From Erythrobacter oryzae (GTDB taxonomy: Bacteria; Pseudomonadota; Alphaproteobacteria; Sphingomonadales; Sphingomonadaceae), in NCBI RefSeq assembly GCF_030271515.1, contig NZ_JASCXI010000001.1, positions 434,001 to 498,000 of the forward strand: 64,000 nt of DNA, given 5' to 3'. Below the pieces are notes generated by a model. The model did no database searches. It was not told where the DNA came from and saw only the letters and a program-made list of their open reading frames with translations. Positions 34,604 through 57,076 of this stretch are shown piece by piece. The number at the start of each line of letters is the position of its first letter. The stretch's first letter is position 1. The position numbers and the translations under genes were made by a program.

Positions 34604-34679
<76 letters not shown>

Positions 34680-37298: not shown

Positions 37299-37679
37299 AT
37301 GAACCGGGTCAAGCTCTCCGTCCGCGTGCCGATGGGGCAGGAAGTGATGATCCGGCGCTATGCCGAGGCGCGCGGATTGACCCGCTATCAGGCCCTGTCG
37401 CGGGTGATCGAGGCCGGTCTTGGCGCGGTTGCCGATGCGCCAATGGCAGGCGGCAGCAACGCTGGCGATGACGTCATGGCGGCATTCGATGCGCGGCTTG
37501 GCGTGATCGAAGCCCTGCTCGATCGCAGCTTGTTCACCGCCAGTGCGGCCTATGCCTATGCCCGCCGCGCGGCCCTGCGCGGTGATGGCGATGCCGACCG
37601 CACCGACAGCATGATCGGCGAAGCGGCGCACTCGGCCTATCGCCGCCAGCGCGCTCTGGCAGCGGAGGCGCTGTCATGA
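37299..37679 (+). CDS. RHH-type transfer accessory protein (TrwA-like position)
   Basis: 126 aa. The N-terminus has the ribbon-helix-helix shape: strand VKLSVRVP, helix EVMIRRYAEARG, turn LTRYQALS, helix RVIEAGL. The rest is helical and Ala-rich. In R388-like mobilization regions an RHH protein (TrwA) binds oriT and precedes the coupling protein and relaxase; this gene holds that place, and its stop overlaps the coupling-protein start (ATGA). Sequence similarity to TrwA itself is not visible. Start ATG 37299 after GGGAGGC. Confidence 0.7.
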   Translation: MNRVKLSVRVPMGQEVMIRRYAEARGLTRYQALSRVIEAGLGAVADAPMAGGSNAGDDVMAAFDARLGVIEALLDRSLFTASAAYAYARRAALRGDGDADRTDSMIGEAAHSAYRRQRALAAEALS

Positions 37680-39508
37680 GCCGCGACCGCGACAATCTTC
37701 TGAGGGGCCAAGGCCTCTTGAAGCAGACCATCGCCGGGCTCGCCGCGCGCTGGCGCGGCTATGCCTGGACCGTTGCGGGCAGCGCCGGGCTCGGAGCCTT
37801 TTTGCTGTCGTCCCGTAACACCCCGTCCGAACAATGGACCTGTGCCTATCAGCACTGGCAGGGTGTGGCGGTCAGCTGGTTTGCCAGCGGGCGCAGCGAT
37901 CCTGCGATCACGGTTCACCTTCACGACCGGACCGCGCGGGTGCCGGCCAGCGTGCTGGCCAATGACCGGATATGGCTTTGGTGCTGGGATGATCTTTTCG
38001 GCAGGGCGCTGCTCGGCGGCACATTGGGCGCGCTGGTCGGCATGCTGCTGTGCTTTGGCTTTGCTATCTGGATACGCAGCGAGGGCAAGGAATCCACCCG
38101 CGATCGTTTCATTACTGGCACGCAGATCGTCGCCGAACGCGTCTTGGCCAGGAAGACGCGCAAGGCCAGCAATGCACGGTCGATCCGCATTGCTTCGGTC
38201 GGCATTCCGGCATGGCTGGAGTGCCGCCATTTTGCCCTGCTCGGCACGACCGGCGCGGGCAAGACCACCGTCATGCGCCAGATGCTCGACCAGGTCGAAG
38301 CGCGCGGCGAACCGGCTTTGGTCTACGACACCTCGGGCGAGTTCATCACCCATTACTACCGGCCCGAGCGCGGCGACATCATCCTCAATCCCTTTGACGA
38401 GCGCTCGGCCTTTTGGTCGCCTTTCTCCGAGATTGCCCATCCGGCAGACGCCGACCGCATCGCCCGCCAGCTGGTGTCCGAGACCGGAGAAAGGGATGAC
38501 GATGTCTGGCTGGAAACGTCTCGCATACTTGTCGCCAACGTCCTGCGGGTGCTTAGCGCCGAGGGGCGCACCACGCTTCCCGACTTGCTCGATGCGCTTC
38601 AGGTCAAGGGCAAGGAGGAAATGAAGGTCTGGCTGGCGGGCACCTCATCGGCGCGCACCTTTGCCGATGATGCTGACCGGGCGACAGGCAGCGTGCTCTT
38701 CATGCTCGCCAAGGCTGCCACCCTGCTGCAGTTCCTGTGGCGCGAGCCGGGAGATCGCGGCAGCTTTGCCTTCCGCGAGTTCATTGCCGGGCTCGACGCA
38801 CATCAGGGGCCCAAGCCCTGGCTCTTCGTCCCGCGCAAGGAAGACTATTTCGAGGCGATGAAGCCGCTCTTGGCCTGCTGGCTGGAATGCGCAGCCAGCG
38901 CCATGCTGGGGCTTCCGCCGTCCGACAGGCGCCGCATGTGGTTCTTCCTGGACGAGCTGGCCGACCTGCCCCGCGTCGACAATCTCACCCGGTTGCTCCC
39001 AGAGGGCCGCAAGTTCGGGGCGAGCGTGGTGCTGACCTTTCAGGCCATCGGCCAGATGCACCGCCGCTATGGCCGTGACAGCGCCGAGGCGCTGCTCGGC
39101 TGCTGCAATTCGAAATTGTATCTGCAGCTGATCGACCGCGACACGCGGGAATGGGCATCGCGGAATATCGGCGATGTCGAGGTGGAAGTGCGCAGCGCCT
39201 CCGACAGCTTCGAGACCGGGCCGCATAGCGGGCGCACATCGGTGGGCAGCACCCGCGTGGTCCGGCCTGCCGTAATCGAGAGCGATCTTCGTTTGCAGCC
39301 CCATCACGGCTTCCTGCAATTGCCCGATGCCTTGCCGGTTGGGCGGATCAAGCTGACACGGGCGCACATCGATGCGCGGGGTCCTGCCCGCCATCCGGCC
39401 TTTGTCCCGGCCCATATCAGCCAGATGCTGTGGAACCGTATGCCGAAGAAGGCCGACAGCAGTGCTGGCAAGGATGATCCCGCGACCACTCTGAAAGGGC
39501 CGGTCTGA
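37676..39508 (+). CDS. type IV coupling protein, TrwB/TraD family
   Basis: 610 aa. Two N-terminal membrane segments (about 23-42 and 105-130) anchor a hexameric DNA-pumping ATPase: Walker A GTTGAGKTT (K196), the family block YDTSGEFITHYYRPERGDIILNPFD, and Walker B WFFLDELADLPRVD. It couples the relaxase-DNA complex to a type IV secretion channel. No channel genes are on this element, so the partner channel must come from elsewhere. The TGA overlaps the relaxase ATG by one base. Confidence 0.92.
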   Translation: MSRDRDNLLRGQGLLKQTIAGLAARWRGYAWTVAGSAGLGAFLLSSRNTPSEQWTCAYQHWQGVAVSWFASGRSDPAITVHLHDRTARVPASVLANDRIWLWCWDDLFGRALLGGTLGALVGMLLCFGFAIWIRSEGKESTRDRFITGTQIVAERVLARKTRKASNARSIRIASVGIPAWLECRHFALLGTTGAGKTTVMRQMLDQVEARGEPALVYDTSGEFITHYYRPERGDIILNPFDERSAFWSPFSEIAHPADADRIARQLVSETGERDDDVWLETSRILVANVLRVLSAEGRTTLPDLLDALQVKGKEEMKVWLAGTSSARTFADDADRATGSVLFMLAKAATLLQFLWREPGDRGSFAFREFIAGLDAHQGPKPWLFVPRKEDYFEAMKPLLACWLECAASAMLGLPPSDRRRMWFFLDELADLPRVDNLTRLLPEGRKFGASVVLTFQAIGQMHRRYGRDSAEALLGCCNSKLYLQLIDRDTREWASRNIGDVEVEVRSASDSFETGPHSGRTSVGSTRVVRPAVIESDLRLQPHHGFLQLPDALPVGRIKLTRAHIDARGPARHPAFVPAHISQMLWNRMPKKADSSAGKDDPATTLKGPV

Positions 39509-42258
39509 TGGTTGCCACCATCGGCGCAATCGGCAGTTCGGCAGCCGCCTCAAGCTACTATGAGGCCGACGACTACTACGCCGATGGTGACATCTCGCCC
39601 AGCGAATGGCATGGCGAAGGTGCCAAGGCGCTTGGTTTGACAGGCGAAGTGAATCGCGAGACCTTCCGCGCCATCCTTGATGGCACGCTGCCCCATGGCC
39701 AGCAGCTTGGCACCATACGCGAGGGCAAGCTCCAGCACCGGCCCGGTTGGGACGTCACCATGAGCGCGCCCAAGTCGGTCTCGATCATGGCCGAGGTGGC
39801 CGGTGACCGGCGGTTGGTGGTGGCGCATAACAATGCCGTGAAGGCCGCGCTCGCCTATGTCGAGCGCCATACCGCTGCCACTCGTATCCGCGCCGACGGC
39901 GGGGTTGAGCAGCGACAGACCACAGACAATCTCGTGATCGCGAGCTTTCGCCATGATACGAGCCGGGCTCAGGACCCACAGCTTCACACCCACAATGTCA
40001 TCATGAACATGACGCAGGACGCCGAGGGCAACTGGCGCAGTCTTGAGCCGCGCGCGCTGTACCAGCTGCAGAAGGCGATCGGCGCGGTGTACCGGCAGGA
40101 GCTGGCCGTGGGCGTGCGCGCGCTCGGCTACGGCATCGAGCAGGGGAAGGATTCCCTGTTCGAGATCAAGGGTGTCCCCGCCGCCGTCATCCGCGCCTTC
40201 AGCGAGCGCGCCGCTCAGGTTGAAGCCCGGCTCGCCGAGCGCGGCCAGACCCGCGCGACCGCATCCGCCGAAGAAAAGCAGATTGCCGCGCTCGACACCC
40301 GCGAGGCGAAGCAGAGCCTGGAGCGGGGCGAGTTGGTAGCGAACTGGCGCGCGGAGGCGGATGCGGCAGGGTTCGGGAAGGACGTAAGGGAAGCTTTGGT
40401 CGCGGCCAGCAAGGAGGTGGCGGCCAGTTTGGAGCATGGCAGCGCACTTACCGCGCAGGGGCAGATCGCGGCGCATCAGGCCGTTGCGCTTGCCGCCGCC
40501 AATCTTGGTGAGCGCCAGTCGGTGTTCGCCGCTGCCGAGCTGGAGAAGGAGGCCGGGCGCTACGGTTTGGGCCGGGTGACTGCCGCCCAGATCGGCGCAG
40601 CCGTCGCGCGAGCACAAGGTCACGGCGCGCTCGTGCCGCGCACCTTCCTCGACAAGCGCGGCGCGGAATTTGCCGGGTTTACAACTGCCGAGAACATTGC
40701 CCAGGAGCGGCAGTTGCTGCGTCTGGAGGCCGAAGGGCGCGGGGCTGCTGCTCCGATCCTATCCGCCAAGCAAGCGGCGAGCGCGGTGGCCCGCGCCGAG
40801 CTGCGCTCCGATCACCCCTGGAACGAGGGCCAGCGCGCGGCCACCCGCGCACTGCTTACCAGCCCGCACCGCGTGACCGGCCTTCAAGGCTATGCCGGGA
40901 CCGCCAAGACCACCACCGTGCTGGCGACCTTTGCCCGCGAAGCGCAAGCGCGCGGGGTTCCCGTGACCGCGCTTGCGCCGACCGCGTCCGCTGCGCAGAC
41001 ATTGGGCGATGCCCTCGGCCAGCGCGGCGAGACCGTCGCCCGTCAGCTTGCGCGCAATGGCGCTGCGCTGTCGGGCGGCGTGTGGATTGTTGATGAAGCA
41101 TCGCTGCTCTCGGCCCGAGACATGGCGGCGCTGCTTGGCCTTGCCGCTGACAGCAAGGCCCGCGTGGTGCTGGTCGGCGATGTGAAGCAATTGGGCTCCG
41201 TTGGCGCAGGCGCGGCCTTTACCCAGCTGCAATCCGCCGGCATGGCCACCGCACGGCTCGATAGTGTGGTGCGCCAGACCAACACCGCCACCCGCGAAGC
41301 CGTGCAGGCATCCATCGAAGGTGATGCCCGCAGGGCGCTCGACGCGCTAGATCGCGGTGGTGGGAAGATCATTGCTCATGGCAGTCAGGGTGAGCGATTC
41401 GCTGTCATGGCCAAGGCCTATGCCGCACTCGATGCCAGTGAGCGGGGGCGCACCTTGGTGATTGAGCCATCGCGAGAGGGGCGAGATGCGCTTACCGCCG
41501 ATGTCCGCCGCGAGCTTGCAGCTGCTGGAGTCCTATCCGGCCCCGCCGTCACCATGGAGAGTCTGGTCGCCAAAAACCTGTCGCGCATCGAGGCCCGCGA
41601 TCCGGCCAGCTATGCGCCGGGCGATACTGTCCGCTTCTTGCGCGACTATGCCGACAAGGGCGTGACGCGCGGCGCTGCCTACCTGGTCGAGCGTATCGAT
41701 GGGGAGAAGGCTGCAATATCGCTCAAATCCGCAGACGGCTCATCCATCGACTGGCGCCTGCGCCAGTGGGGCGCAGGTAAGGTCGAGGTGTTCGAGCCGA
41801 AGGCGATGGAGTTGCAGGCGGGCGACCGTGTGCAGTTCACCCGCAACGACCGTGAGGCCGGGCGCATCAACGGGCTACGCGGCACGGTGACCGGCATTGA
41901 TCCCGAGCGGCAGCAGGCGAGCATCGCGTTGGCCAATGGCCGCGAGCAGCGGCTCGATCTTGCCGACCCCCGCGACGCCCATTTGCGTCATGCCTATGTC
42001 CAGACCGCACACGCTGCGCAGGGCCAGACCGCCGAGCGGGTGCTGATCCACGCCGACAGTCGCTCTGCCAATCTGGTCGATCAGAAGATGCTCTATGTCG
42101 CGCTCTCGCGCGCGAAGTCCGAAGCCATTGTCGTCACCGACGACAAGGCGCGGCTGATCAGCGCCATCCATGAACGCGCGGGCGAGAAGCAGACCGCTAT
42201 GGAGGTCAGTGCGCCCGAGGCCGCCAAGACGAAATCTCTGGGGGCTGGTCTCGGCTGA
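39508..42258 (+). CDS. MobF-family relaxase-helicase (TrwC/TraI-like)
   Basis: 916 aa. The N-terminal HUH relaxase has paired tyrosines at 17/18 and 23/24 (SYYEADDYY) and the metal-binding His triad H149...H160-x-H162 in HDTSRAQDPQLHTH, almost the spacing of TrwC. The C-terminal SF1 helicase has Walker A GYAGTAKTTT and the DEAS box in WIVDEAS. It nicks oriT, stays on the 5' end and unwinds the strand for transfer. Last gene of the coupled mobilization operon. Confidence 0.95.
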   Translation: MVATIGAIGSSAAASSYYEADDYYADGDISPSEWHGEGAKALGLTGEVNRETFRAILDGTLPHGQQLGTIREGKLQHRPGWDVTMSAPKSVSIMAEVAGDRRLVVAHNNAVKAALAYVERHTAATRIRADGGVEQRQTTDNLVIASFRHDTSRAQDPQLHTHNVIMNMTQDAEGNWRSLEPRALYQLQKAIGAVYRQELAVGVRALGYGIEQGKDSLFEIKGVPAAVIRAFSERAAQVEARLAERGQTRATASAEEKQIAALDTREAKQSLERGELVANWRAEADAAGFGKDVREALVAASKEVAASLEHGSALTAQGQIAAHQAVALAAANLGERQSVFAAAELEKEAGRYGLGRVTAAQIGAAVARAQGHGALVPRTFLDKRGAEFAGFTTAENIAQERQLLRLEAEGRGAAAPILSAKQAASAVARAELRSDHPWNEGQRAATRALLTSPHRVTGLQGYAGTAKTTTVLATFAREAQARGVPVTALAPTASAAQTLGDALGQRGETVARQLARNGAALSGGVWIVDEASLLSARDMAALLGLAADSKARVVLVGDVKQLGSVGAGAAFTQLQSAGMATARLDSVVRQTNTATREAVQASIEGDARRALDALDRGGGKIIAHGSQGERFAVMAKAYAALDASERGRTLVIEPSREGRDALTADVRRELAAAGVLSGPAVTMESLVAKNLSRIEARDPASYAPGDTVRFLRDYADKGVTRGAAYLVERIDGEKAAISLKSADGSSIDWRLRQWGAGKVEVFEPKAMELQAGDRVQFTRNDREAGRINGLRGTVTGIDPERQQASIALANGREQRLDLADPRDAHLRHAYVQTAHAAQGQTAERVLIHADSRSANLVDQKMLYVALSRAKSEAIVVTDDKARLISAIHERAGEKQTAMEVSAPEAAKTKSLGAGLG

Positions 42259-42477
42259 TCGTGTGATGCGTGAATGCCGGGCCATGGCATCCTTCGCCCT
42301 GCCATTGGAATGAACTGCTCCCTGAGTGACGGCCCGTGCCGGGCGGGATCAACAGCCTGCCCGCTCCATTCGGGCCTTGCCCTCCCGTGTTGGCTGTTCC
42401 GCGTACCGCTGACCCGCCCGGCCATCCGGCCCGTCCCTTCATCCGCGTTCCCAACGACAGGACGAAGGATTACTCCC

Positions 42478-43356
42478 ATGGCCAGCACCGCAACCGCCAG
42501 CATCTACGACACCATCACCAACCAGATTATCGCCGCGCTCGACCGCGGCACCGGCGACTACACCCTTCCCTGGCATCGCAGCAGTGCCCCGCTGACCCGG
42601 CCCATCAATGCGGTCACCCGCAAGGCCTATCGCGGGGTCAATGTCCTCGCCCTCTGGGCCAGCGCCGAGGCGCAGGACTTCGGGCATGGTCTCTGGGCAA
42701 CCTATCGGCAGTGGCAGTCGCTGGGTGCACAGGTCCGCAAGGGCGAGAAGGCCTCGCCGATCGTGTTCTACAAGGTGCTGGACAAGGCAGACGCCAGTGA
42801 CGACGAGGCGCGCGAGAGCGCAGGCCGGATCTTCGCGCAGGGCTCGCATGTGTTCAACATCGCCCAGGTCGAGGGCTACGCCTTGCCCGAGGTGCCGGAA
42901 GCCGCGGCCTTTGATCCCGTCCCTGATGTCGAGGCCTTCATCGCCGCCACCGGCGCTGCCATCCGCATCCAGGGCGACAGCGCCCACTACACCCTTTCCA
43001 TCGACACGATCACCATGCCTGATCGCGAGCGGTTCTTTACCACCGACACCGCCAGCGCGGCGCAGAACTGGTATGCCATTCTGCTCCACGAGCTGGTCCA
43101 CTGGACAGGGGCCGATCATCGGCTCGCCCGCACCTTCGGCAAGCGCTTCGGCGACGAGGCCTATGCCATGGAAGAGCTGGTCGCCGAACTTGGCTCAGCC
43201 TTCCTGTGCGGTGACCTCGGCCTGTCGGTGACCCCGCGTCCCGACCATGCCTGCTACCTCGCCAGCTGGCTGAAGGTACTCAAAGGCGACAACCGGGCGA
43301 TCTTCACTGCCGCCAGCGCGGCGACGAAGGCGGCGGAGTGGTTGGGGGAGGCATAG
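42478..43356 (+). CDS. ArdC-like antirestriction protein (zincin)
   Basis: 292 aa. An N-terminal ssDNA-binding ArdC domain (ITNQIIAALDRGTGDYTLPWHR; YRGVNVLALW; GAQVRKGEKASPIVFYK) and a C-terminal zincin-like domain with HELVHW (H204, E205, H208). ArdC shields incoming element DNA from host restriction, which fits a mobilizable element. Start ATG 42478 with GAAGGA upstream; the 219-bp gap before it holds only weak hairpins. Confidence 0.88.
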   Translation: MASTATASIYDTITNQIIAALDRGTGDYTLPWHRSSAPLTRPINAVTRKAYRGVNVLALWASAEAQDFGHGLWATYRQWQSLGAQVRKGEKASPIVFYKVLDKADASDDEARESAGRIFAQGSHVFNIAQVEGYALPEVPEAAAFDPVPDVEAFIAATGAAIRIQGDSAHYTLSIDTITMPDRERFFTTDTASAAQNWYAILLHELVHWTGADHRLARTFGKRFGDEAYAMEELVAELGSAFLCGDLGLSVTPRPDHACYLASWLKVLKGDNRAIFTAASAATKAAEWLGEA

Positions 43357-43681: not shown

Positions 43682-46678
43682 ATGACGACAGCCGAAAGCA
43701 CCATTGAACGGGAACTGATTTCCAAGCTTGAAGAGCTCAAATACGAATATCGCCCAGATATCCGTGACCGAGCAGCGCTGGAGCAAAACTTTCGCCAGAA
43801 GTTCGAAGCCCTCAACCGCGTCCGCCTCACCGATACCGAATTTCAGCGTCTGCTGGAAAGCATCACCACACCCGACGTGTTCGCCGCCGCCAACATCCTG
43901 CGCGGGTACAGCAGCTTTGAGCGCGATGATGGCACGCCGCTCAACTACACCTTGGTCAACATCAAGGATTGGTGCAAAAACACGTTCGAGGTGGTCAACC
44001 AGCTCCGCATCAACACGGATAACAGTCACCATCGCTATGACGTGATCTTGCTCATCAACGGCGTCCCAGCCGTGCAGATCGAGCTGAAGACGATGGCCGT
44101 CAGCCCCCGCCGCGCCATGCAGCAGATCGTCGATTACAAGACCGATCCGGGCAATGGATATGGCAAAACCCTGCTTTGCTTCATCCAGATTTTCGTCGTC
44201 AGCAACCGCACCGACACCTGGTATTTCGCCAACAACAACGCGCGCCAGTTCAGCTTCAATGCCGATGAGCGGTTCCTGCCGATCTATCAGTTCGCCAGCG
44301 AGGATAACAAGAAGGTCACGCATCTCGACAGCTTTGCCGAGAAATTCCTGGCGAAGTGCACGCTTGGCCAGATGGTCAGCCGCTACATGGTGCTGGTCGC
44401 CAGCGAGCAGAAGCTGATGATGATGCGGCCCTACCAAATCTATGCCGTAAAGGCGATTGTGGAGTGTATCCACCAGAACTGCGGTAACGGCTATGTCTGG
44501 CACACCACCGGCAGCGGGAAGACGCTGACATCCTTCAAGGCCTCTACCTTGCTCAAGGATAACGATGACATCGCCAAATGCCTGTTCGTCGTAGACCGGA
44601 AGGACCTTGACCGGCAGACGCGGGAGGAATTCAACCGCTTTCAGGAAGGCTGCGTTGAGGAAAACACGAACACCGAAACTTTGGTGCGCCGCCTGTTATC
44701 GGACGACCGGGCCGACAAGGTCATTGTCACCACCATCCAGAAGCTGGGCTTGGCGCTCGACGATACCAATCGCCGCCAGTTCAATAAGACCCAGACCTAC
44801 AAGGAACGGTTGGAGCCGCTGCGTGACGAGCGCATCGCGATCATTTTCGACGAATGCCACCGCTCGCAGTTCGGGGACAATCACAAGGCCATCAAGGAGT
44901 TCTTCCCCAAAGCCCAGCTTTTCGGGTTCACCGGCACGCCCATTTTTGAGCAGAACGCCAGCTATCAGCAGGTTGAGGGCGAACAGGGCAGCTATCGGAC
45001 CACGGACGACCTGTTCCAGCGCAGCCTGCACCAATACACGATTACCCACGCCATTGAGGACCGCAACGTCCTGCGGTTCCACATCGACTACTATAAGCCT
45101 GAAGGGGAAAAGCTGCCCAAGCCCGGCGAGGCGTTGAAAAAAGAGAAGGTCATCGAAACGATCCTGGCCAAGCACAACGCTGCCACCGCCAGCCGCAAGT
45201 TCAATGCCGTGCTGGCGACCAGCTCAATCAACGATGCCATCGATTACTATGAAAAGTTCGCGAAGATTCAGGCGCAGCGCCAAGCTGCCGATCCCGAGTT
45301 TCAGCCCCTGAAAATTGCCTGCGTCTTTTCACCGCCCGCCGAAGGCAACAAGGACGTGCAGCAGATTCAGGAAGATCTGCCGCAGGAAAAGGCTGACAAC
45401 GCGCAGGACCCGGAAGCCAAGAAGGCCGCGCTGAAGGCGATCATCAGCGATTACAACGACCATTACGGCACCAACCACAAGATTGGCGAGTTCGACCTGT
45501 ATTATCAGGACGTGCAAAAGCGCATCAAGGATCAGCAGTTCCCCAATGCCGATTTGCCACATAAGGGCGCGGAGAAGATCGACATCGTCATTGTGGTGGA
45601 CATGTTGCTCACAGGCTTCGATTCAAAGTTCCTGAACACGCTCTACGTGGACAAGAACCTGAAGCACCACGGGCTGATTCAGGCATTTTCGCGCACCAAC
45701 CGCGTGCTGAATGACACCAAGCCTTATGGCAACATTCTCGATTTCCGGCAGCAGCAGGCAGCGGTTGAAGAGGCGATTGCCCTCTTTTCCGGCGAGAAGA
45801 TCGATAATCCCAAGCAAATCTGGTTGGTCGATCCCGCACCGAAGGTGATCGAAAATTTGCAAAACGCAATGCAGACGCTGGGCGCGTTCATGGAATCGCA
45901 GGGGCTATCCAACGCGCCCGAAGACGTGCCCAACCTGAAGGGTGATGCCGCGCGCGGGCAGTTCATTACCCTGTTCAAGGAGGTGCAGCGCCTGAAGACC
46001 CAGCTCGATCAATACACCGATCTGAGCGAAGAGCAGGCGGAAGCGATTGGCCAGGCCGTGCCGACCGATGCCTTGCAGGGTTTCCGCAGCATGTATCTGG
46101 AGACCGCAAAGCGGCTGAAGGAAAAGCAGGACAAGCCCGGCGGTGCCGACGATCCGGTAGTGGACCAGCTCGACTTTGAGTTTGTGCTCTTCCACTCAGC
46201 CGTGATCGATTATGATTACATCATGGGGCTGATTGCCCGCTACACGCAGAACCTGCCCGGCAAGCTGAAAATGAGCCGCGAGCAGCTGATTGGCCTAATC
46301 CAGTCCGATGCCAAGTTCATCGACGAGCGCGAGGATATTGCCGAGTATATTCGCGGCCTGTCCACCGATCAGCCGCTGGACGAAAAGGAAATCCGCGCCG
46401 GTTACGAACGGTTCAAGTCCGCGAAGAAGGTGCAGGCGCTGACCGCGATAGCCGACAAGCACCGGGTGGACGCGGCTGTGCTGCAAACCTTTGTCGATGT
46501 CGTGCTGCGCCGCCGGATTTTCGATGGCGACGGCCTCAGCGACCTGATGGCTCCGCTGGAACTGGGATGGAAGGCGCGCACGGAAGCCGAACTGGCGTTG
46601 ATGGAAGACCTTGCCCCATTACTCCACAAGCTGGCCCAGGGCCGCGAGATTTCGGGGCTGAGCGCATATGAGCAGTAA
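43682..46678 (+). CDS. hsdR: type I restriction enzyme R subunit
   Basis: 998 aa. N-terminal PD-(D/E)xK nuclease (Asp120, then Glu134-Leu-Lys136 in QIELK) cleaves DNA; the SF2 translocase has Walker A TTGSGKT (K280), the DECHRS box and GFTGTPIF; the C-terminal helical part binds the methylase core. It restricts unmethylated DNA after ATP-driven translocation. AT-richer and with different codon use from the host genes. First gene of an overlapping hsdR-hsdS-X-hsdM operon. Confidence 0.95.
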   Translation: MTTAESTIERELISKLEELKYEYRPDIRDRAALEQNFRQKFEALNRVRLTDTEFQRLLESITTPDVFAAANILRGYSSFERDDGTPLNYTLVNIKDWCKNTFEVVNQLRINTDNSHHRYDVILLINGVPAVQIELKTMAVSPRRAMQQIVDYKTDPGNGYGKTLLCFIQIFVVSNRTDTWYFANNNARQFSFNADERFLPIYQFASEDNKKVTHLDSFAEKFLAKCTLGQMVSRYMVLVASEQKLMMMRPYQIYAVKAIVECIHQNCGNGYVWHTTGSGKTLTSFKASTLLKDNDDIAKCLFVVDRKDLDRQTREEFNRFQEGCVEENTNTETLVRRLLSDDRADKVIVTTIQKLGLALDDTNRRQFNKTQTYKERLEPLRDERIAIIFDECHRSQFGDNHKAIKEFFPKAQLFGFTGTPIFEQNASYQQVEGEQGSYRTTDDLFQRSLHQYTITHAIEDRNVLRFHIDYYKPEGEKLPKPGEALKKEKVIETILAKHNAATASRKFNAVLATSSINDAIDYYEKFAKIQAQRQAADPEFQPLKIACVFSPPAEGNKDVQQIQEDLPQEKADNAQDPEAKKAALKAIISDYNDHYGTNHKIGEFDLYYQDVQKRIKDQQFPNADLPHKGAEKIDIVIVVDMLLTGFDSKFLNTLYVDKNLKHHGLIQAFSRTNRVLNDTKPYGNILDFRQQQAAVEEAIALFSGEKIDNPKQIWLVDPAPKVIENLQNAMQTLGAFMESQGLSNAPEDVPNLKGDAARGQFITLFKEVQRLKTQLDQYTDLSEEQAEAIGQAVPTDALQGFRSMYLETAKRLKEKQDKPGGADDPVVDQLDFEFVLFHSAVIDYDYIMGLIARYTQNLPGKLKMSREQLIGLIQSDAKFIDEREDIAEYIRGLSTDQPLDEKEIRAGYERFKSAKKVQALTAIADKHRVDAAVLQTFVDVVLRRRIFDGDGLSDLMAPLELGWKARTEAELALMEDLAPLLHKLAQGREISGLSAYEQ

Positions 46679-47996
46679 GGCTACGAGCGCTGTCGCGGGC
46701 GGGCAGGATCAGATGGGCGGGCTTATGCCGAAGTTGCGTTTTCCGGACTTTCGGGAAGCCGAGGGATGGAATCCTGTGCCTTTGAGCCAGACATGTCGAC
46801 CGATAAACGAGAAAGTGGGTGGCGTGAATCTCACGCCCGTGAGCATTACCGCTGGGCTTGGTTTTGTTTCGCAAGCATCAAAATTCGGGCGGGACATTTC
46901 AGGCGATCAATACAAAAACTACACTTACCTGCGCTTTGGCGATTTCGCGTACAATAAAGGAAATTCAAAGAAGTACCCACAGGGCTATGTGTGCCAACTC
47001 AAGGAGTTCGAGGAGGCTGCTGCATCGAGTGCATTTATTTGTTTCCGATTAAATCCGGAGCACGAACCGGCATTTTTTCAGGCTGCCTTTGATCAGAATC
47101 TGCATGGCAGACAGTTGTCGAAGTACATTACCAGCGGCGCGAGAAGCGACGGCCTGCTGAATATCCGCCCAGACGCCTTTTACAGCGTCAACATCCCAAT
47201 TCCGCCGACCCCCGGTGAGCAGCAGAAAATCGCCGATTGCCTGTTGTCCATCGATACGCTGATTGCCGCCGAGGCGGAGAAGCTGGAGGCGCTGAAGGAC
47301 CACAAAAAGGGCCTGATGCAACAGCTTTTCCCCGCCCCCGGCGAAACCACCCCCCGCCTCCGCTTTCCGGAGTTTGGGGGGGCGAGAGATTGGGACGCCA
47401 AGAGGCTTGGCTCAAGTGCGAAAAAAGTGGGCAGCGGCATAACCCCAAAAGGTGGGAATTCCGCATACTCACTTTCTGGCCGTCCATTCATGCGAAGTCA
47501 GAACGTCGGCTGGGGTGAATTGCTCCTTGAGAACGTGGCTTTCATAGCCGAAGAGTTGCATGCGACTTTTCCCGCAACTGAGATTCATGCGGGCGATGTT
47601 CTGTTGAACATAACAGGGGCATCAATAGGCCGAAGCGCAATTGCTGACGGCCGAATATCCGGCGGCAACGTCAACCAGCATGTTTGCATCATTCGCTTAA
47701 AAGAACACGAAATGATTCCGAGCTATCTCAATCAATTCCTTCTTTCTCCATTCGGGCAATCACAAATCGACAGTTTTCAAGCGGGTGGGAACAGGCAGGG
47801 TCTGAATTTCGAACAGATTCGCTCTTTCGAAGTGCCATGCCCTCCGGCCTTGCGCGAACAAGAACGCATCGCCGATTGCCTTTCGTCTATCGACGTACTT
47901 ATCGCGGCGAAGGGGAGCAAAATTGACGCGCTCAAGGCCCACAAGCAGGGCCTGATACAGCAGCTTTTCCCGGTGGCAGATCAGGTGCAGGCATGA
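46668..47996 (+). CDS. hsdS: type I restriction specificity subunit
   Basis: 442 aa. Two target-recognition domains, each ended by a matching helical spacer: IADCLLSIDTLIAAEAEKLEALKDHKKGL and the later IADCLSSIDVLIAAKGSKIDALKAHKQGL differ at few positions (both about 30 residues). This repeat makes the pseudo-twofold HsdS that reads a bipartite DNA site. The two TRDs differ, so the site is asymmetric; its sequence cannot be predicted here. Start overlaps hsdR by 11 bp. Confidence 0.93.
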   Translation: MSSKATSAVAGGQDQMGGLMPKLRFPDFREAEGWNPVPLSQTCRPINEKVGGVNLTPVSITAGLGFVSQASKFGRDISGDQYKNYTYLRFGDFAYNKGNSKKYPQGYVCQLKEFEEAAASSAFICFRLNPEHEPAFFQAAFDQNLHGRQLSKYITSGARSDGLLNIRPDAFYSVNIPIPPTPGEQQKIADCLLSIDTLIAAEAEKLEALKDHKKGLMQQLFPAPGETTPRLRFPEFGGARDWDAKRLGSSAKKVGSGITPKGGNSAYSLSGRPFMRSQNVGWGELLLENVAFIAEELHATFPATEIHAGDVLLNITGASIGRSAIADGRISGGNVNQHVCIIRLKEHEMIPSYLNQFLLSPFGQSQIDSFQAGGNRQGLNFEQIRSFEVPCPPALREQERIADCLSSIDVLIAAKGSKIDALKAHKQGLIQQLFPVADQVQA

Positions 47997-49096
47997 GCGC
48001 AAGTCAGGTTTTCGCCGACCTGCCGACACTCGCTGCACACATTCGCGGCGTGTTGGCGGACAAGAAATTCGTCCTGCTCTATGCCTATAATGGGACTGGT
48101 AAGACTCGGCTTTCCATGGAGTTCAAGGACATCGGCAAGCAGGCAGGTGGCCGCGATACCCTCTATTACAATGCCTTCACCGAAGACCTGTTTTCGTGGG
48201 ACAATGACCTTGAAGGCGACACTGACCGCAAGCTGAAAATCAATTCCGCATCCCATTTTTTCGACGGCCTCGCGGAGCTGGAAATGGACAACCGCATCCG
48301 TCCGTTATTGCGGCGCTACGTCGATTTCGATTTCCGCATCGACACGGACGATTGGTTCGTCCGTTTTTTCCGTGACGACGATCCCGATCAGAACATCAAG
48401 GTTTCGCGCGGGGAGGAAAACATCTTTATCTGGTGTTTCTTCCTCGCCATCGTCCAATTGGCGATGGACGGAGCCGAAGCCTATCAGTGGGTCAAGTTCA
48501 TCTACATCGACGATCCGATATCCTCGCTCGACGAGCATAACGCCATTACCGTCGGCAACCACCTCGCCAGATTTCTGGAGCGGAAAGATCACGCGATCAG
48601 AACGGTGATTTCATCGCACCACTCGCTTTTCTACAATGTGATGTGGAATGAGATCAAACGGATCGACCGCAAGTTCGTGCCGTGCCTGCTTTCCAAGTCA
48701 CGGCAGACGGGCGAGTTCCAGTTGGCCTACACCGGCGACACGCCTTTCTTTCACCACCTGGCCCTGTTGCAAGATCTTCACCACGCGAAGGAAACCGGTC
48801 AGGTCTTCACGCACCATTTCCATTCGCTGCGCAGCCTGCTCGAAAAATCCTCGATTTTTCACGGCTACAAGGATTTTGCCACCTGCATTAAGCAGGAAGA
48901 GGATGACCCGGACAGCACGTTGTATGGCCGACTGGTCAACTTCCTGAGCCATGGAAATTACTCATTCTATGATCCGGTCGCGATGCTCCCTGAAAACCGG
49001 GAGCACTTCGAGAAAATACTTGCAGATTTTCTGGCATTTTACCCCTTCAATTCCGCACTTCTCCCCCAAGCGCCCGCCCAGGCAGAGGCCCAATGA
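47993..49096 (+). CDS. PrrC-like ATPase with predicted anticodon-nuclease centre
   Basis: 367 aa, close to the size of EcoPrrC (396). An ABC-type ATPase: Walker A YNGTGKT (K37), signature-like VSRGEEN, Walker B YIDDPISSLD (D173, D174) and a switch His in ISSHHS. The C-terminal third has R280-x3-E284 (LRSLLE) and H320 (NFLSHGNY), matching the R320-x3-E324...H356 triad of PrrC. Known PrrC is held inactive by a type Ic restriction complex and cleaves tRNA-Lys when a phage blocks it. Here the gene overlaps hsdS and hsdM by 4 bp each. The activity is inferred. Confidence 0.75.
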   Translation: MSASQVFADLPTLAAHIRGVLADKKFVLLYAYNGTGKTRLSMEFKDIGKQAGGRDTLYYNAFTEDLFSWDNDLEGDTDRKLKINSASHFFDGLAELEMDNRIRPLLRRYVDFDFRIDTDDWFVRFFRDDDPDQNIKVSRGEENIFIWCFFLAIVQLAMDGAEAYQWVKFIYIDDPISSLDEHNAITVGNHLARFLERKDHAIRTVISSHHSLFYNVMWNEIKRIDRKFVPCLLSKSRQTGEFQLAYTGDTPFFHHLALLQDLHHAKETGQVFTHHFHSLRSLLEKSSIFHGYKDFATCIKQEEDDPDSTLYGRLVNFLSHGNYSFYDPVAMLPENREHFEKILADFLAFYPFNSALLPQAPAQAEAQ

Positions 49097-50700
49097 CCGA
49101 CCACGACCAAAAGCAACTAGGCAAGACCCTATGGGCCATCGCCGACACTTTGCGCGGCGCAATGAACGCGGACGACTTCCGCGATTACATGCTGGCATTC
49201 CTGTTTCTGCGCTATCTGTCGGACAACTACGAAGCGGCTGCCGCCAAGGAGTTGGGGTCGGACTATCCCAAGCTGAAGCTTGAGGACAAGCGTGCGCCGT
49301 TGTCAGTCTGGTACGCGGAAAATCCCGAGGACACCGGAGCCTTTGAAAAGCAGATGCGCCGCAAGGTGCACTACGTTATCCGCCCGGAATATCTTTGGAC
49401 CAGCATCGCGGAGCTGGCGCGCAAGCAGGACGTTGAGCTGCTCGACACCCTTCAGAAGGGCCTAGAGTATATCGAGACAGAATCGTTCGCCAGCACGTTC
49501 CGCGGCCTGTTTTCGGAAATCAATCTGGCGTCTGACAAGCTCGGCAAAGTCTATGCCGAGCGCAATGCCACCCTTTGCAAGATCATCTCCGAGATCGCCA
49601 AGGGATTGAGGGAGTTCTCAACCGACAGCGATACGCTTGGCGATGCCTATGAATATTTGATCGGCCAGTTTGCCGCAGGGTCCGGCAAGAAGGCGGGGGA
49701 ATTCTACACCCCGCAGTTCGTGTCTGACATCCTCTCGCAGATCGTCACTCTAGACGGGCAGGAGCCAGCCACCGGCCCACGCATCCACATGGACAGCCTG
49801 ATGGATTTCGCCTGCGGCTCCGGGTCGCTGTTGCTCAACGTGCGTCACCGCATGGGTACGCACGGGATCGGCAAGATTTTCGGGCAGGAAAAGAACATTA
49901 CCACCTACAACCTGGCACGCATGAACATGCTGCTGCACGGGGTGAAGGATACCGAGTTCGAGATATTTCACGGCGACACGCTGACCAACGACTGGGACAT
50001 TCTGCGCGAAACGAACCCGGCCAAAATGCCGCGTTTTGACGCCGTGGTCGCCAACCCGCCGTTCAGCTATCGCTGGGAGCCTACGGACGCGCTGGGTGAG
50101 GACGTGCGTTTCAAGAACCACGGCCTTGCGCCAAAGTCCGCCGCCGACTTCGCTTTTCTGTTGCATGGCTTCCACTACCTCAAGGACGATGGGGTGATGG
50201 CCATCATCCTGCCGCACGGTGTGCTGTTCCGAGGCGGTAAGGAAGCTGAAATCCGCAGGAAACTGCTCAAGGACGGCCATATCGACACCGTCATCGGCCT
50301 GCCCGCCAACCTGTTCTATTCCACCGGCATCCCTGTGTGCATCCTGGTGCTGAAGAAGTGCAAGAAGCCTGATGACGTGCTGTTCATCAACGCGGCGGAG
50401 CATTTCGAGAAGGGCAAACGGCAGAACAATCTGACCGACGAGCATATCGAGAAAATTGTCTCGACCTATCAATTCCGCACAGAGGAAACGCGGTATTCCC
50501 GCTGCGTGCCGATGGAAGAGATTGAAGGGAACGATTTCAATCTCAACATTTCCCGCTACATAAGCACGGCGACAGCGGATGAGGAAATCGACTTGGGCGC
50601 GGTCCATGACAGGCTGACAAAGGCGGAGAGAAAAATTGCCTCAGCCACCAGCGATCACAACGTATTCCTTAAAGAATTGGGGTTGCCCTTGTTGCCCTAA
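49093..50700 (+). CDS. hsdM: type I restriction enzyme M subunit (adenine methyltransferase)
   Basis: 535 aa. The N-terminal helical domain (LWAIADTLRGAMNADDFRDYMLAFLFLRYLSDNYE) holds HsdS; the methylase domain has the SAM-binding DFACGSGSLLL and catalytic NPPF (N321-F324). It methylates an adenine in each half of the HsdS site and protects the host. Very close to the EcoR124-type (Ic) group. Last gene of the operon; a weak ATCCA/TGGAT hairpin with a T-run follows. Confidence 0.95.
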   Translation: MTDHDQKQLGKTLWAIADTLRGAMNADDFRDYMLAFLFLRYLSDNYEAAAAKELGSDYPKLKLEDKRAPLSVWYAENPEDTGAFEKQMRRKVHYVIRPEYLWTSIAELARKQDVELLDTLQKGLEYIETESFASTFRGLFSEINLASDKLGKVYAERNATLCKIISEIAKGLREFSTDSDTLGDAYEYLIGQFAAGSGKKAGEFYTPQFVSDILSQIVTLDGQEPATGPRIHMDSLMDFACGSGSLLLNVRHRMGTHGIGKIFGQEKNITTYNLARMNMLLHGVKDTEFEIFHGDTLTNDWDILRETNPAKMPRFDAVVANPPFSYRWEPTDALGEDVRFKNHGLAPKSAADFAFLLHGFHYLKDDGVMAIILPHGVLFRGGKEAEIRRKLLKDGHIDTVIGLPANLFYSTGIPVCILVLKKCKKPDDVLFINAAEHFEKGKRQNNLTDEHIEKIVSTYQFRTEETRYSRCVPMEEIEGNDFNLNISRYISTATADEEIDLGAVHDRLTKAERKIASATSDHNVFLKELGLPLLP

Positions 50701-52268: not shown

Positions 52269-52784
52269 CTAACCCTTCGCGGCGCTGGCTTCGAGCGATG
52301 CGGCAATGTCGAGAATCGAGCGCGCGAGAACCATCGGATCGTCTTTCGATGGCAAGAACCCGCGCCGCTTCCAGAATTGCGCGGCCTCCTCATCGACCGC
52401 GTTGACGATCAGCGCCCGGCCACCGATCAGCGCTGCGCCTTCGACGCAGCGCTGCAAAGCATGTTTGAGCAGGCCGGTGCCGATGCCTTTGCCCCGCCAT
52501 TGCGCATCGGTCGCCAGTTGGCCAAGCAGCAGGCAGGGCAGAGGATCTGGCGATTGACCGGTGCGGATCGCACGCGGCAGGCTGACGGGGACAACGGCGG
52601 TTGGCGCGAGGCCATAGAAGCCGATCACCTTCCCCGCGTCATGGACCACCATGACCGCGGTGAAACCCTTCTTCTGGTTCGAGAGCGCACGGGTGCGCAG
52701 CCAGTTGTCGAGCGACGGCTTCTCGCACGAGAATGACGCAAGATCATGCGCTTCGCTGAGCGGCTCGGGTGCGGAAATTGGCAC
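52269..52784 (-). CDS. GNAT acetyltransferase toxin (TacT/AtaT-like)
   Basis: 171 aa GNAT fold: acetyl-CoA loop LATDAQWRGKGIGTGLL, and the toxin-type ending VDEEAAQFWKRRGF with the catalytic-region Tyr replaced by Trp-Lys. Such toxins acetylate the amino acid on charged tRNAs and stop translation. It lies 9 bp downstream of a DUF1778-like antitoxin gene, the normal TacAT order. The start is GTG 52784. Opposite strand to the small genes on its left. Confidence 0.87.
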   Translation of the reverse strand: MPISAPEPLSEAHDLASFSCEKPSLDNWLRTRALSNQKKGFTAVMVVHDAGKVIGFYGLAPTAVVPVSLPRAIRTGQSPDPLPCLLLGQLATDAQWRGKGIGTGLLKHALQRCVEGAALIGGRALIVNAVDEEAAQFWKRRGFLPSKDDPMVLARSILDIAASLEASAAKG

Positions 52785-52793
52785 GGCGGCGGC

Positions 52794-53090
52794 CTATTCG
52801 GCAGCAGGCTTTGATTCCCAGGGAGCAGGCCGCTTCAGCAACTCGACCATTTCCGGCACGGGCTTGGCTGGACGGTCGAGCATGTCGACGAAGGCGGCGA
52901 AACCTTCGGGCGACAAGCGAATGAGCGTGTTCTCCATGATCACCTCTTCTGCCGTCCGCACCGCCGCATCGCGCATGAATTCCGTGCGTGACCGCCCGCG
53001 CAGGCTCGCCGCGCGGTCGATGATCGCAATGTCGGCATCGGCAAGCCGCATCGAAAGCGGATGATCCTTGCGCTGTGTCGCGTGAGCCAT
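52794..53090 (-). CDS. DUF1778-type antitoxin (TacA-like)
   Basis: 98 aa. N-terminal ribbon-helix-helix DNA-binding part (HPLSMRLADADIAIIDRAASLRGRSRTEFMRDAAV) and a C-terminal tail that would wrap the toxin (FAAFVDMLDRP). ATG 53090 is chosen over a frame start at 53177, which would cover the operator. It represses its own promoter, probably at the palindrome 53123-53141. Confidence 0.87.
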   Translation of the reverse strand: MAHATQRKDHPLSMRLADADIAIIDRAASLRGRSRTEFMRDAAVRTAEEVIMENTLIRLSPEGFAAFVDMLDRPAKPVPEMVELLKRPAPWESKPAAE

Positions 53091-53122
53091 GGTCAATCTC
53101 CTTGAAGCTGATTTAGCGCAAT

Positions 53123-53141
53123 GTATCGCATTTTGCAATAC
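53123..53141 (-). promoter_or_regulatory. operator palindrome of the toxin-antitoxin pair
   Basis: The 19-bp near-palindrome GTATTGCAAAATGCGATAC (minus strand) lies 33 bp upstream of the antitoxin ATG. It overlaps a possible -35 TTGCAA, 17-bp spacer and TAAATC -10. RHH antitoxins usually bind such sites with their toxin. Confidence 0.6.
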
Positions 53142-53364
53142 GGAGTTGATGCTTATAGCAGGGCTGAGAGGCGGCAATGCCCCACCCTTCCCTTCGGTGT
53201 GGCGGCTTCGTTTTGAGCACCCGGACTGGCCGCACGCGGGCGAGGGTCAATGTCCGGCCCGCGCCGGTTCCTTGCAGTCACCCGTGTTGGACATGACCCC
53301 GCGCCCTTTGCTGCGCGGCCTTTCTGTCTGGTGCAACGAGCCACCAACACGAAAGGAACATCTC

Positions 53365-55528: not shown

Positions 55529-56818
55529 TCAACCAGCCCTCGCCGCCGCCTCACGTTCAATCATTGCGGCCCAGTCGTGCATCACCTGCTTGCGCCGGTC
55601 GAACAGCTCGGACTTGTTGTAAACCCGCATGATCTTTGAGGTCGTGGCGGTGGCAACATGGTTCAGGACGCGATCCACCACTGCAATGTCCGCGCCGAGA
55701 ACCTCACATGCCAATGTGCTGAATGTGGTACGAAGATCATGGATGGTCCAGTGCTCCATGTCGACCGGCTCCCGCCCAGCCTTCTTTGCAGCCGCAATCC
55801 GCCTTTCGCGGATGATCCGGTCAAGCCGCCGCTTGGCCTTTGCATATCCGGACACCGAGGTGTCGCCGGTCATGCTGAAAACGAACGGGCTGTTCTTCGG
55901 ACGATCTGACGCGGCCAGCGCATCCTTGATCAGCGACACGGCAAGCGGCGATAGCGGGACCCGAAGTGAGTTCCCGCTCTTTGTTCTGTGACCCGGCAAG
56001 GTCCAGACGGCGTTATCGGGATTACCATCGGCCGCGAGATCAAGTTCGGTAACAGGCATCGCGGCCACTTCCTCGCGGCGCATGGGTACCACGATCAGCA
56101 AGCGATACAGCTGGCCAAAGGGATATCCGAGCTCTCCCATGGCATCCCAGATTTCCATCAGCTCATCGAGCGAATGGAAACGGTCGCGGGTGCGCTCCTT
56201 GGCGGGCTTCTTGATATTCGCCGCCGGATTGGCCTCCACAATTTCCTGATCGACACACCAGTTCATGAAGGCCTTTACGTATGCCAGGTTGCGGTTCGCA
56301 GCCATGGGGGCCTTCTCCGCATGTTTGCGCACGGCATCGACGATGTCAGACCGTGTGATCGATGTGATGTCTTTCGAACTGAATTGCTTCAGCACCCCGG
56401 ACTTTCCGTCGAGGGCGCGGCGGCATTGCGACCCCCGCCGCAGTTGCGAGAGCTTCATGCGTTCGTAATCGTCAAGCACATCAGAGAGTTTGCGCTGCAT
56501 TCGCGCCGCCCGGATCGCTTCGCGCTTTGCCTCTCGCTTCTCCTCATTGGGATCAACGCCTTCGACAACTTCAATGTGCTTGACCCGTGCTGCCTCTCGC
56601 GCATCCGACAGGCCCATGCCCGGCCAGGCTCCCAATTTGATCCGGGTGCGCTTTCCGTTGCGCAGCCGCGTACAAAGGAGCCATGTGGCCGAACGCTCAC
56701 CGGCCCGGATGCGCAACCCGGCAACGCGGTCATCAGCGAGCTCCAACTGCTTGCCCTTGACCGTTCGAGCCCGTGTGATCAGTGTCTCGATTGCCTGCCT
56801 GTTGAGCGGTTTCACCAT
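55529..56818 (-). CDS. tyrosine-type site-specific integrase (P4-like)
   Basis: 429 aa. N-terminal arm-binding domain of the P4/DUF4102 kind (VAGLRIRAG; RIKLGAWPGMGLSDAREAA), core-binding helices, and a catalytic domain with Arg in PMRREEV, HDLRTTF (His-x-x-Arg), the later His in VLNHVA and nucleophile Tyr in MRVYNKSE. It integrates the element into the tRNA-Lys 3' end and excises it with a helper. ATG 56818 is chosen over a TTG at 56830. It is transcribed away from attR, past the right arm repeat. Confidence 0.94.
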   Translation of the reverse strand: MVKPLNRQAIETLITRARTVKGKQLELADDRVAGLRIRAGERSATWLLCTRLRNGKRTRIKLGAWPGMGLSDAREAARVKHIEVVEGVDPNEEKREAKREAIRAARMQRKLSDVLDDYERMKLSQLRRGSQCRRALDGKSGVLKQFSSKDITSITRSDIVDAVRKHAEKAPMAANRNLAYVKAFMNWCVDQEIVEANPAANIKKPAKERTRDRFHSLDELMEIWDAMGELGYPFGQLYRLLIVVPMRREEVAAMPVTELDLAADGNPDNAVWTLPGHRTKSGNSLRVPLSPLAVSLIKDALAASDRPKNSPFVFSMTGDTSVSGYAKAKRRLDRIIRERRIAAAKKAGREPVDMEHWTIHDLRTTFSTLACEVLGADIAVVDRVLNHVATATTSKIMRVYNKSELFDRRKQVMHDWAAMIEREAAARAG

Positions 56819-56840
56819 AATTCGCGCCAATGCCTTTTCG

Positions 56841-57030: not shown

Positions 57031-57076
57031 ACTCTTAATCAGCGGGTCCTAGGTTCGAGCCCTAGTGCGTCCACCA
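57031..57076 (+). repeat. attR: 46-bp direct repeat of the tRNA-Lys 3' end
   Basis: Exact copy of 34634-34679. It lacks the acceptor 5' half and D-arm, so it is not a tRNA gene. It marks the right border of the integrated element; core genes resume with ribB about 110 bp later. Confidence 0.93.

Follow-up and report, generated by a model that had tools for sequence, protein, structure and literature searches.

In the prototype EcoprrI locus, the gene for the anticodon nuclease EcoPrrC lies between hsdS and hsdR of a type I restriction-modification (R-M) system, and the activity of EcoPrrC depends on R320, E324 and H356 (PMC3014915). A second protein, PrrC170 from an isolate of K. quasipneumoniae, is reported to share 35% identity with EcoPrrC; the cloned system comprises HsdR, HsdS, PrrC and HsdM in that order and is active against phages T1 and T7. 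Overexpression of PrrC170 arrests growth, and tRNA sequencing points to tRNA-Lys, infection being restored by phage tRNA-Lys but only weakly by E. coli tRNA-Lys (PMC11555353). The PrrC family has been delimited as proteins of 341–416 aa without a zinc-hook insert, whose orthologues were described in 2008 as ‘invariably linked to a type Ic R-M system’ (PMC2610378), and the nuclease domain has been placed in HEPN via profile comparison (PMC3710099). We analysed a stretch of 64,000 nucleotides from Erythrobacter oryzae (hereafter the window), in which an hsdR-hsdS-prrC-hsdM operon is carried on an integrative element (Table 1). By analogy with the systems above, the product of its third gene is very probably a PrrC-type anticodon nuclease that acts as guard of the surrounding type I R-M enzyme.

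Table 1. Features of the window that bear on the prrC operon and the element carrying it.
Feature	Coordinates	Strand	Remarks
tRNA-Lys (CTT)	34604..34679	+	integration target; sole full-length match found in this genome
att repeat, tRNA end	34634..34679	+	46 bp, anticodon loop to CCA
type IV coupling protein	37676..39508	+	TrwB_AAD_bind
TrwC/MobF-type relaxase-helicase	39508..42258	+	
ArdC-type antirestriction protein	42274..43356	+	ArdcN and MPTase-PolyVal; immediately precedes hsdR; translation may start further inside the ORF
hsdR	43682..46678	+	998 aa; PD-ExK-like stretch (...IELK), Walker A (GSGKT) and DECH motifs
hsdS	46668..47996	+	442 aa; specificity subunit, with overlaps to hsdR on one side and prrC on the other
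prrC	47993..49096	+	367 aa; ABC ATPase and predicted C-terminal anticodon-nuclease domain, triad R280/E284/H320
hsdM	49093..50700	+	535 aa with NPPF motif; 4-nt overlap with prrC
GNAT acetyltransferase with TacA-like antitoxin	52269..53177	-	
tyrosine integrase	55529..56830	-	Arm-DNA-bind_3, Phage_integrase
att repeat, distal end	57031..57076	+	exact 46-bp copy

Identity and operon context of the window PrrC

The four-gene operon is intact and all of its junctions overlap, by 4 nt on each side of prrC, and PADLOC calls its four products REase_I, Specificity_I, PrrC and MTase_I. A first-pass annotation of this DNA had read the third gene as a PrrC-like anticodon nuclease in a type I R-M operon, flanked by hsdS and hsdM, and both readings stand. 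The prrC reading frame is uninterrupted and its product matches PADLOC PrrC (PDLC02360) at an E-value of 6.7e-135 with residues 5–355 covered, and Pfam AAA_13 at 7e-14. As expected of the PrrC family, prrC directly follows hsdS inside a type I hsd operon, the protein contains the ABC-ATPase N-domain features of the family (Walker A, signature, Walker B and His switch), and its length falls within the family range without a zinc-hook insert. The accompanying remark that this is where PrrC sits in known loci agrees with the published PrrC170 operon but not with EcoprrI.

With EcoPrrC represented by the sequence from a public plasmid record of E. coli that bears the annotation ‘anticodon nuclease’, an alignment of 89 homologues pairs K37 of the window protein with EcoPrrC K46, D173/D174 with D215/D216, R280 with R320, E284 with E324 and H320 with H356, so that the ATPase and nuclease residues named beforehand are the correct counterparts. 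K37, D173/D174 and H209 show no variation in any of the 89 homologues. Among 105 aligned homologues, K37, D173/D174, R280, E284 and H320 are invariant in 87 of 87 proteins of the clade that includes the window protein (clade B, below), in 17 of 17 of the EcoPrrC clade and in a single outlier (from genome G132), as are H255 and H275 of the window protein; conservation of R280/E284/H320 had been set beforehand as a test, and it is seen in all 105.

An AlphaFold2 model of the protein (51-row alignment, mean pLDDT 80.8) has an N-domain (residues 6–253) that matches the Rad50 head with a best Z of 13.7 and an rmsd of 3.0 Å over 218 residues. The modelled C-domain consists of helices only; R280 and E284 lie on helix 273–290 and H320 just past helix 310–319. 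When predicted alone, the domain attains a pLDDT of 80.4. For the earlier expectation of a HEPN-like C-domain this is partial agreement at most: the model is all-helical with R280 and E284 on one helix, but a search of the isolated domain against PDB folds gave no significant match, HEPN toxins and Csm6/Csx1 entries appearing only at E-values of 4.4–8.8, an outcome that neither upholds the HEPN assignment nor counts against it. PDB sequence searches with the window PrrC and EcoPrrC as queries returned no clear relative, and a search of phage genomes with the window PrrC gave no match at an E-value of 0.01.

PrrC clades, gene orders and the position before hsdM

A maximum-likelihood tree of 105 PrrC proteins separates an EcoPrrC clade of 17 rows (support 100/100) from clade B, which comprises 87 rows including the window protein (98/83); the G132 protein is an outlier on a long branch whose placement the tree program flags as unsure. 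The sample is skewed towards clade B because the window protein served as query. Gene order follows the same division: hsdR lies upstream and hsdM downstream of prrC in all 76 clade-B loci that hold both flanks (nine others hold only hsdM and two only hsdR), whereas the reverse, hsdM before and hsdR after prrC, holds for 17 of 17 loci of the EcoPrrC clade (order hsdM-hsdS-prrC-hsdR). Locus L081 shows the EcoprrI arrangement directly, with prrC between hsdS and hsdR. By an automated estimate of ORF ends, prrC has 4-nt overlaps upstream at 44 and downstream at 56 of 83 clade-B loci.

The restriction enzymes also differ. The window and EcoprrI share 36% identity in HsdM and 33% in HsdR, against 80% and 77% between EcoprrI and its Zymomonas relative, which places the window enzyme outside type IC by sequence; in a comparison that took in types IC and IA, its HsdM is 24% identical to that of EcoKI (type IA). 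Judged in this way, the 2008 description of an invariable link to type Ic (PMC2610378) fails for clade B. PrrC identity tracks HsdM identity with an r of 0.86 over 4945 pairs, uncorrected for shared ancestry, and HsdS may differ widely between operons whose PrrC, HsdM and HsdR are near-identical. In two resistance-plasmid operons (L082 and L253), hsdR and hsdS are separated by genes for a TrlF-annotated ATPase and a protein of Schlafen-AlbA type, and eight other loci have ORFs at that position that match these in cluster and size.

The gene preceding hsdM is variable in this R-M family. Twelve HsdM relatives, 75–82% identical, were found in 11 of 200 genomes, and as one was cut by a contig end, 11 informative loci remained in the family of G1214 (the Acidovorax genome of locus L011). 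Only four of these contain PrrC (L242, L243, L246 and L247), a count on which the idea that this R-M family always includes PrrC was rejected; a RhuM-like protein is present in six (L244, L245, L247, L248, L249 and L252) and a YhcG-like protein in two (L241 and L250). The RhuM-like six include one shared with PrrC, one that is frameshifted and one fragment, and L249 and L252 come from one genome. One protein of each kind was matched to Pfam (RhuM, 9e-106; YhcG, 1e-55) and the remainder were assigned by visible likeness. In nine of nine cases examined the ORF before hsdM overlaps hsdM by 4 nt. From these gene contents, the slot before hsdM in the R-M family of the window can be filled by PrrC or by a protein resembling RhuM or YhcG. 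RhuM-like and Fic/Doc-like genes have been noted alongside PrrC/RloC in R-M operons (PMC3710099), and a surface-level search of the literature on RhuM/type I restriction and on DUF1016/hsdM found no description of an interchangeable slot. A broader proposal would make the hsdS-hsdM position of this non-IC R-M family a modular guard slot, with a single restriction core in control of exchangeable effectors, whose occupant (PrrC, RhuM or a YhcG PD-DExK nuclease) is translationally coupled to hsdM and freed upon inhibition of the R-M enzyme by a phage; we put this forward only tentatively and lean against it at present. Operons that are otherwise alike but hold PrrC, RhuM-like or YhcG-like proteins amount to exchange experiments made by nature, through which one can ask what is really under the control of the restriction enzyme.

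At a threshold of ≥70% HsdM identity, a search of 397 same-family genomes gave matches in four, all with PrrC, and PrrC also accompanies HsdM in 38 of 43 plasmid records, a set with many near-identical entries. The other five plasmid records, from Arsenophonus, gave no PrrC match at an E-value of 1e-30, and the one that was read has the order R-S-M. For the other clade, EcoprrI-like HsdM occurs in 1086 plasmid records and EcoPrrC-like PrrC in at least 15 among the matches listed (52% to 99.7% identity), so that EcoPrrC-like PrrC seems far rarer on plasmids than EcoprrI-like HsdM.

The integrative element carrying the operon

The claim that the operon belongs to an element residing in a tRNA-Lys gene proved correct. 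An exact copy of the 3′ part of tRNA-Lys(CTT) recurs at the distal end, and the element accordingly spans about 34634–57076 (22.4 kb). In addition to the products in Table 1 it encodes an HTH/IrrE-like protein, and its GNAT and TacA-like genes are probably a toxin-antitoxin pair. No conjugation-pore component is present among the element proteins scanned, and the element is therefore read from its gene content as probably mobilizable rather than self-transmissible. A further PrrC guard is thus placed on a probable mobilizable element.

The ArdC-type antirestriction gene adjoins an R-M system whose guard antirestriction may trigger. ArdC was considered as a regular partner of prrC and rejected, as besides the window it was found only in G132 and G447 (86 loci and 20 regions), against one of 40 control islands. 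The G132 genome, from another genus, contains a shorter relative of the window element with DNA 90–95% identical in the long shared parts. Its HsdR is 99% and its PrrC 32% identical to those of the window, and comparison of G132:C1:1834910-1874909 (L099, L100) with window positions 46750–49059 indicates that hsdS and prrC have been replaced as a block. The hsdM of the G132 element matches that of the window only to residue 433, and another hsdM piece lies elsewhere in the genome.

Proposed mechanism, target and comparison with known systems

By analogy with EcoPrrC (PMC3014915) and PrrC170 (PMC11555353), translation of the window PrrC would be coupled to that of HsdS and HsdM, and the protein would associate with HsdRMS and be kept inactive within the Hsd complex. 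A phage antirestriction factor that disturbs this complex would lead the ABC ATPase of PrrC to free the C-terminal nuclease, which would then cut the anticodon loop of tRNA-Lys via R280/E284/H320; translation would stop and the infection would be aborted. Cleavage of tRNA-Lys on the 5′ side of the wobble base is the activity characteristic of the PrrC family. With an HsdM only distantly similar to that of EcoprrI, silencing through EcoprrI-like contacts cannot be assumed. The expectation of tRNA-Lys as target is founded mainly on PrrC170, which has been tested, and on the motif GDTPFFHH, which the window protein shares with Klebsiella plasmid PrrC at the site of the EcoPrrC tRNA-contact region. 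The window PrrC is 61% identical to the K. quasipneumoniae plasmid copy and 62.6% identical to a K. pneumoniae plasmid copy (pNDM-KN), and the Klebsiella copies are 32–33% identical to EcoPrrC. PrrC170 itself would belong to clade B, as deduced from its gene order, its host and its identity to EcoPrrC (PMC11555353).

The specificity of the nuclease may nonetheless vary, as the window and Klebsiella proteins are two residues shorter in the segment matching the EcoPrrC tRNA-contact peptide (284–294), and the position of EcoPrrC Asp287, for which a contact with the modified wobble base is reported (PMC3014915), is Asp in 57 of 87 clade-B and 15 of 17 EcoPrrC-clade proteins. A PrrC-family guard whose main host target is another tRNA, or which cuts both lysine isoacceptors unequally, would agree with this altered segment and with the 30 clade-B proteins that lack Asp there, and the host has both tRNA-Lys(CTT) and tRNA-Lys(TTT), whereas the specificity of EcoPrrC was worked out on a UUU anticodon (PMC3014915). 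The window protein, however, retains Asp at this position (D249) together with the GDTPFFHH of the Klebsiella copies, and the PrrC170 data point to tRNA-Lys (PMC11555353), which makes a different main target unlikely. That the protein is an AAA_13-group ABC ATPase devoid of RNase activity, serving the R-M operon solely as a sensor or DNA-binding partner, might be argued from an N-domain resembling Rad50/SMC heads and a C-domain without a significant PDB match; yet the full triad along with H255 and H275 is invariant in 105 homologues, a conservation that would be needless in a non-catalytic domain, and we give this reading hardly any weight.

The first-pass annotation had also asked whether residence in a tRNA-Lys gene and a nuclease for tRNA-Lys are linked. 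One form of such a link would be that the 3′ part of the tRNA cut by the nuclease, with its anticodon, is itself provided by the element. Att repeats were sought in 88 prrC loci (flanks up to 10 kb, many shorter), in 20 regions of up to 40 kb (where G298 is L055 again) and, with up to 20 kb added on one side or both, in 34 loci. Eight islands with att repeats were obtained, two of them at tRNA-Lys (CTT in the window, TTT at L055) and six at tRNA-Thr (L030, G548), tRNA-Gly (G019), tRNA-Val (G213) and tRNA-Pro (L011, L012), and a link as a rule was rejected on this distribution. The count leaves out G132, where the element is related to that of the window and also lies at Lys att halves, and G1206, where three complete tRNA-Val genes in tandem make up the repeats; tRNAs found near prrC without a repeat in the same loci, likewise left out, include no Lys. 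L055, from a Sphingomonadaceae genome, is a second PrrC island at a lysine tRNA, with tRNA-Lys(TTT) at -4.5 kb from prrC, a 45-bp repeat and a different integrase. In favour of a functional link, the window and L055 elements occupy different lysine tRNA genes with PrrC proteins 56% and integrases 28% identical, and a control of 40 integrase regions, chosen in same-family genomes by the strongest arm-domain matches that had a long open frame, shows a tRNA no more than 500 bp from the integrase match in 35, only one of which is Lys. The resulting difference of 2/8 against 1/35 gives a Fisher p of 0.08 with a control unmatched for integrase type, and as the control scores a nearby tRNA rather than an att repeat (a repeat is found in only one of the 40 regions), the comparison is not like for like. 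Elements that integrate into tRNA genes generally rebuild the 3′ part of their target, which further weighs against the link, as do the six islands at other tRNAs and the lack of Lys among the repeat-less ones. A functional connection is therefore very unlikely; there may be a weak tRNA-Lys excess among PrrC islands, and the location of the window element looks like coincidence rather than rule.

A PrrC-type anticodon nuclease guarding its R-M enzyme thus remains the preferred reading, and its relation to the described systems may be specified as follows. RloC has ABC ATPase motifs and an R-x3-E...H triad in common with the window protein, but spans 658–897 aa with a zinc-hook/coiled-coil insert (PMC2610378), and the short, insert-free window protein is not an RloC. 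With EcoPrrC/EcoprrI the window shares the ABC ATPase and R-E-H triad, the position of prrC directly after hsdS and the connection to a type I R-M system (PMC3014915), whereas its PrrC is 33.7% identical to EcoPrrC, the tRNA recognition segment differs, and the order hsdM-hsdS-prrC-hsdR contrasts with R-S-prrC-M. The window operon has the same order as that of PrrC170, HsdR, HsdS, PrrC, HsdM (PMC11555353), although it resides on an integrative element of Erythrobacter oryzae rather than in K. quasipneumoniae, and nothing lies between its hsdR and hsdS, where two Klebsiella plasmid copies have a TrlF-type ATPase and an AlbA-type protein. If PrrC170 shares the clade of the window protein, as appears to be the case, target and trigger become directly testable. 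The window prrC is a further example of the known PrrC kind, in the PrrC170-type arrangement rather than that of EcoprrI, and PrrC is hence documented with two different type I R-M families of opposite gene orders.
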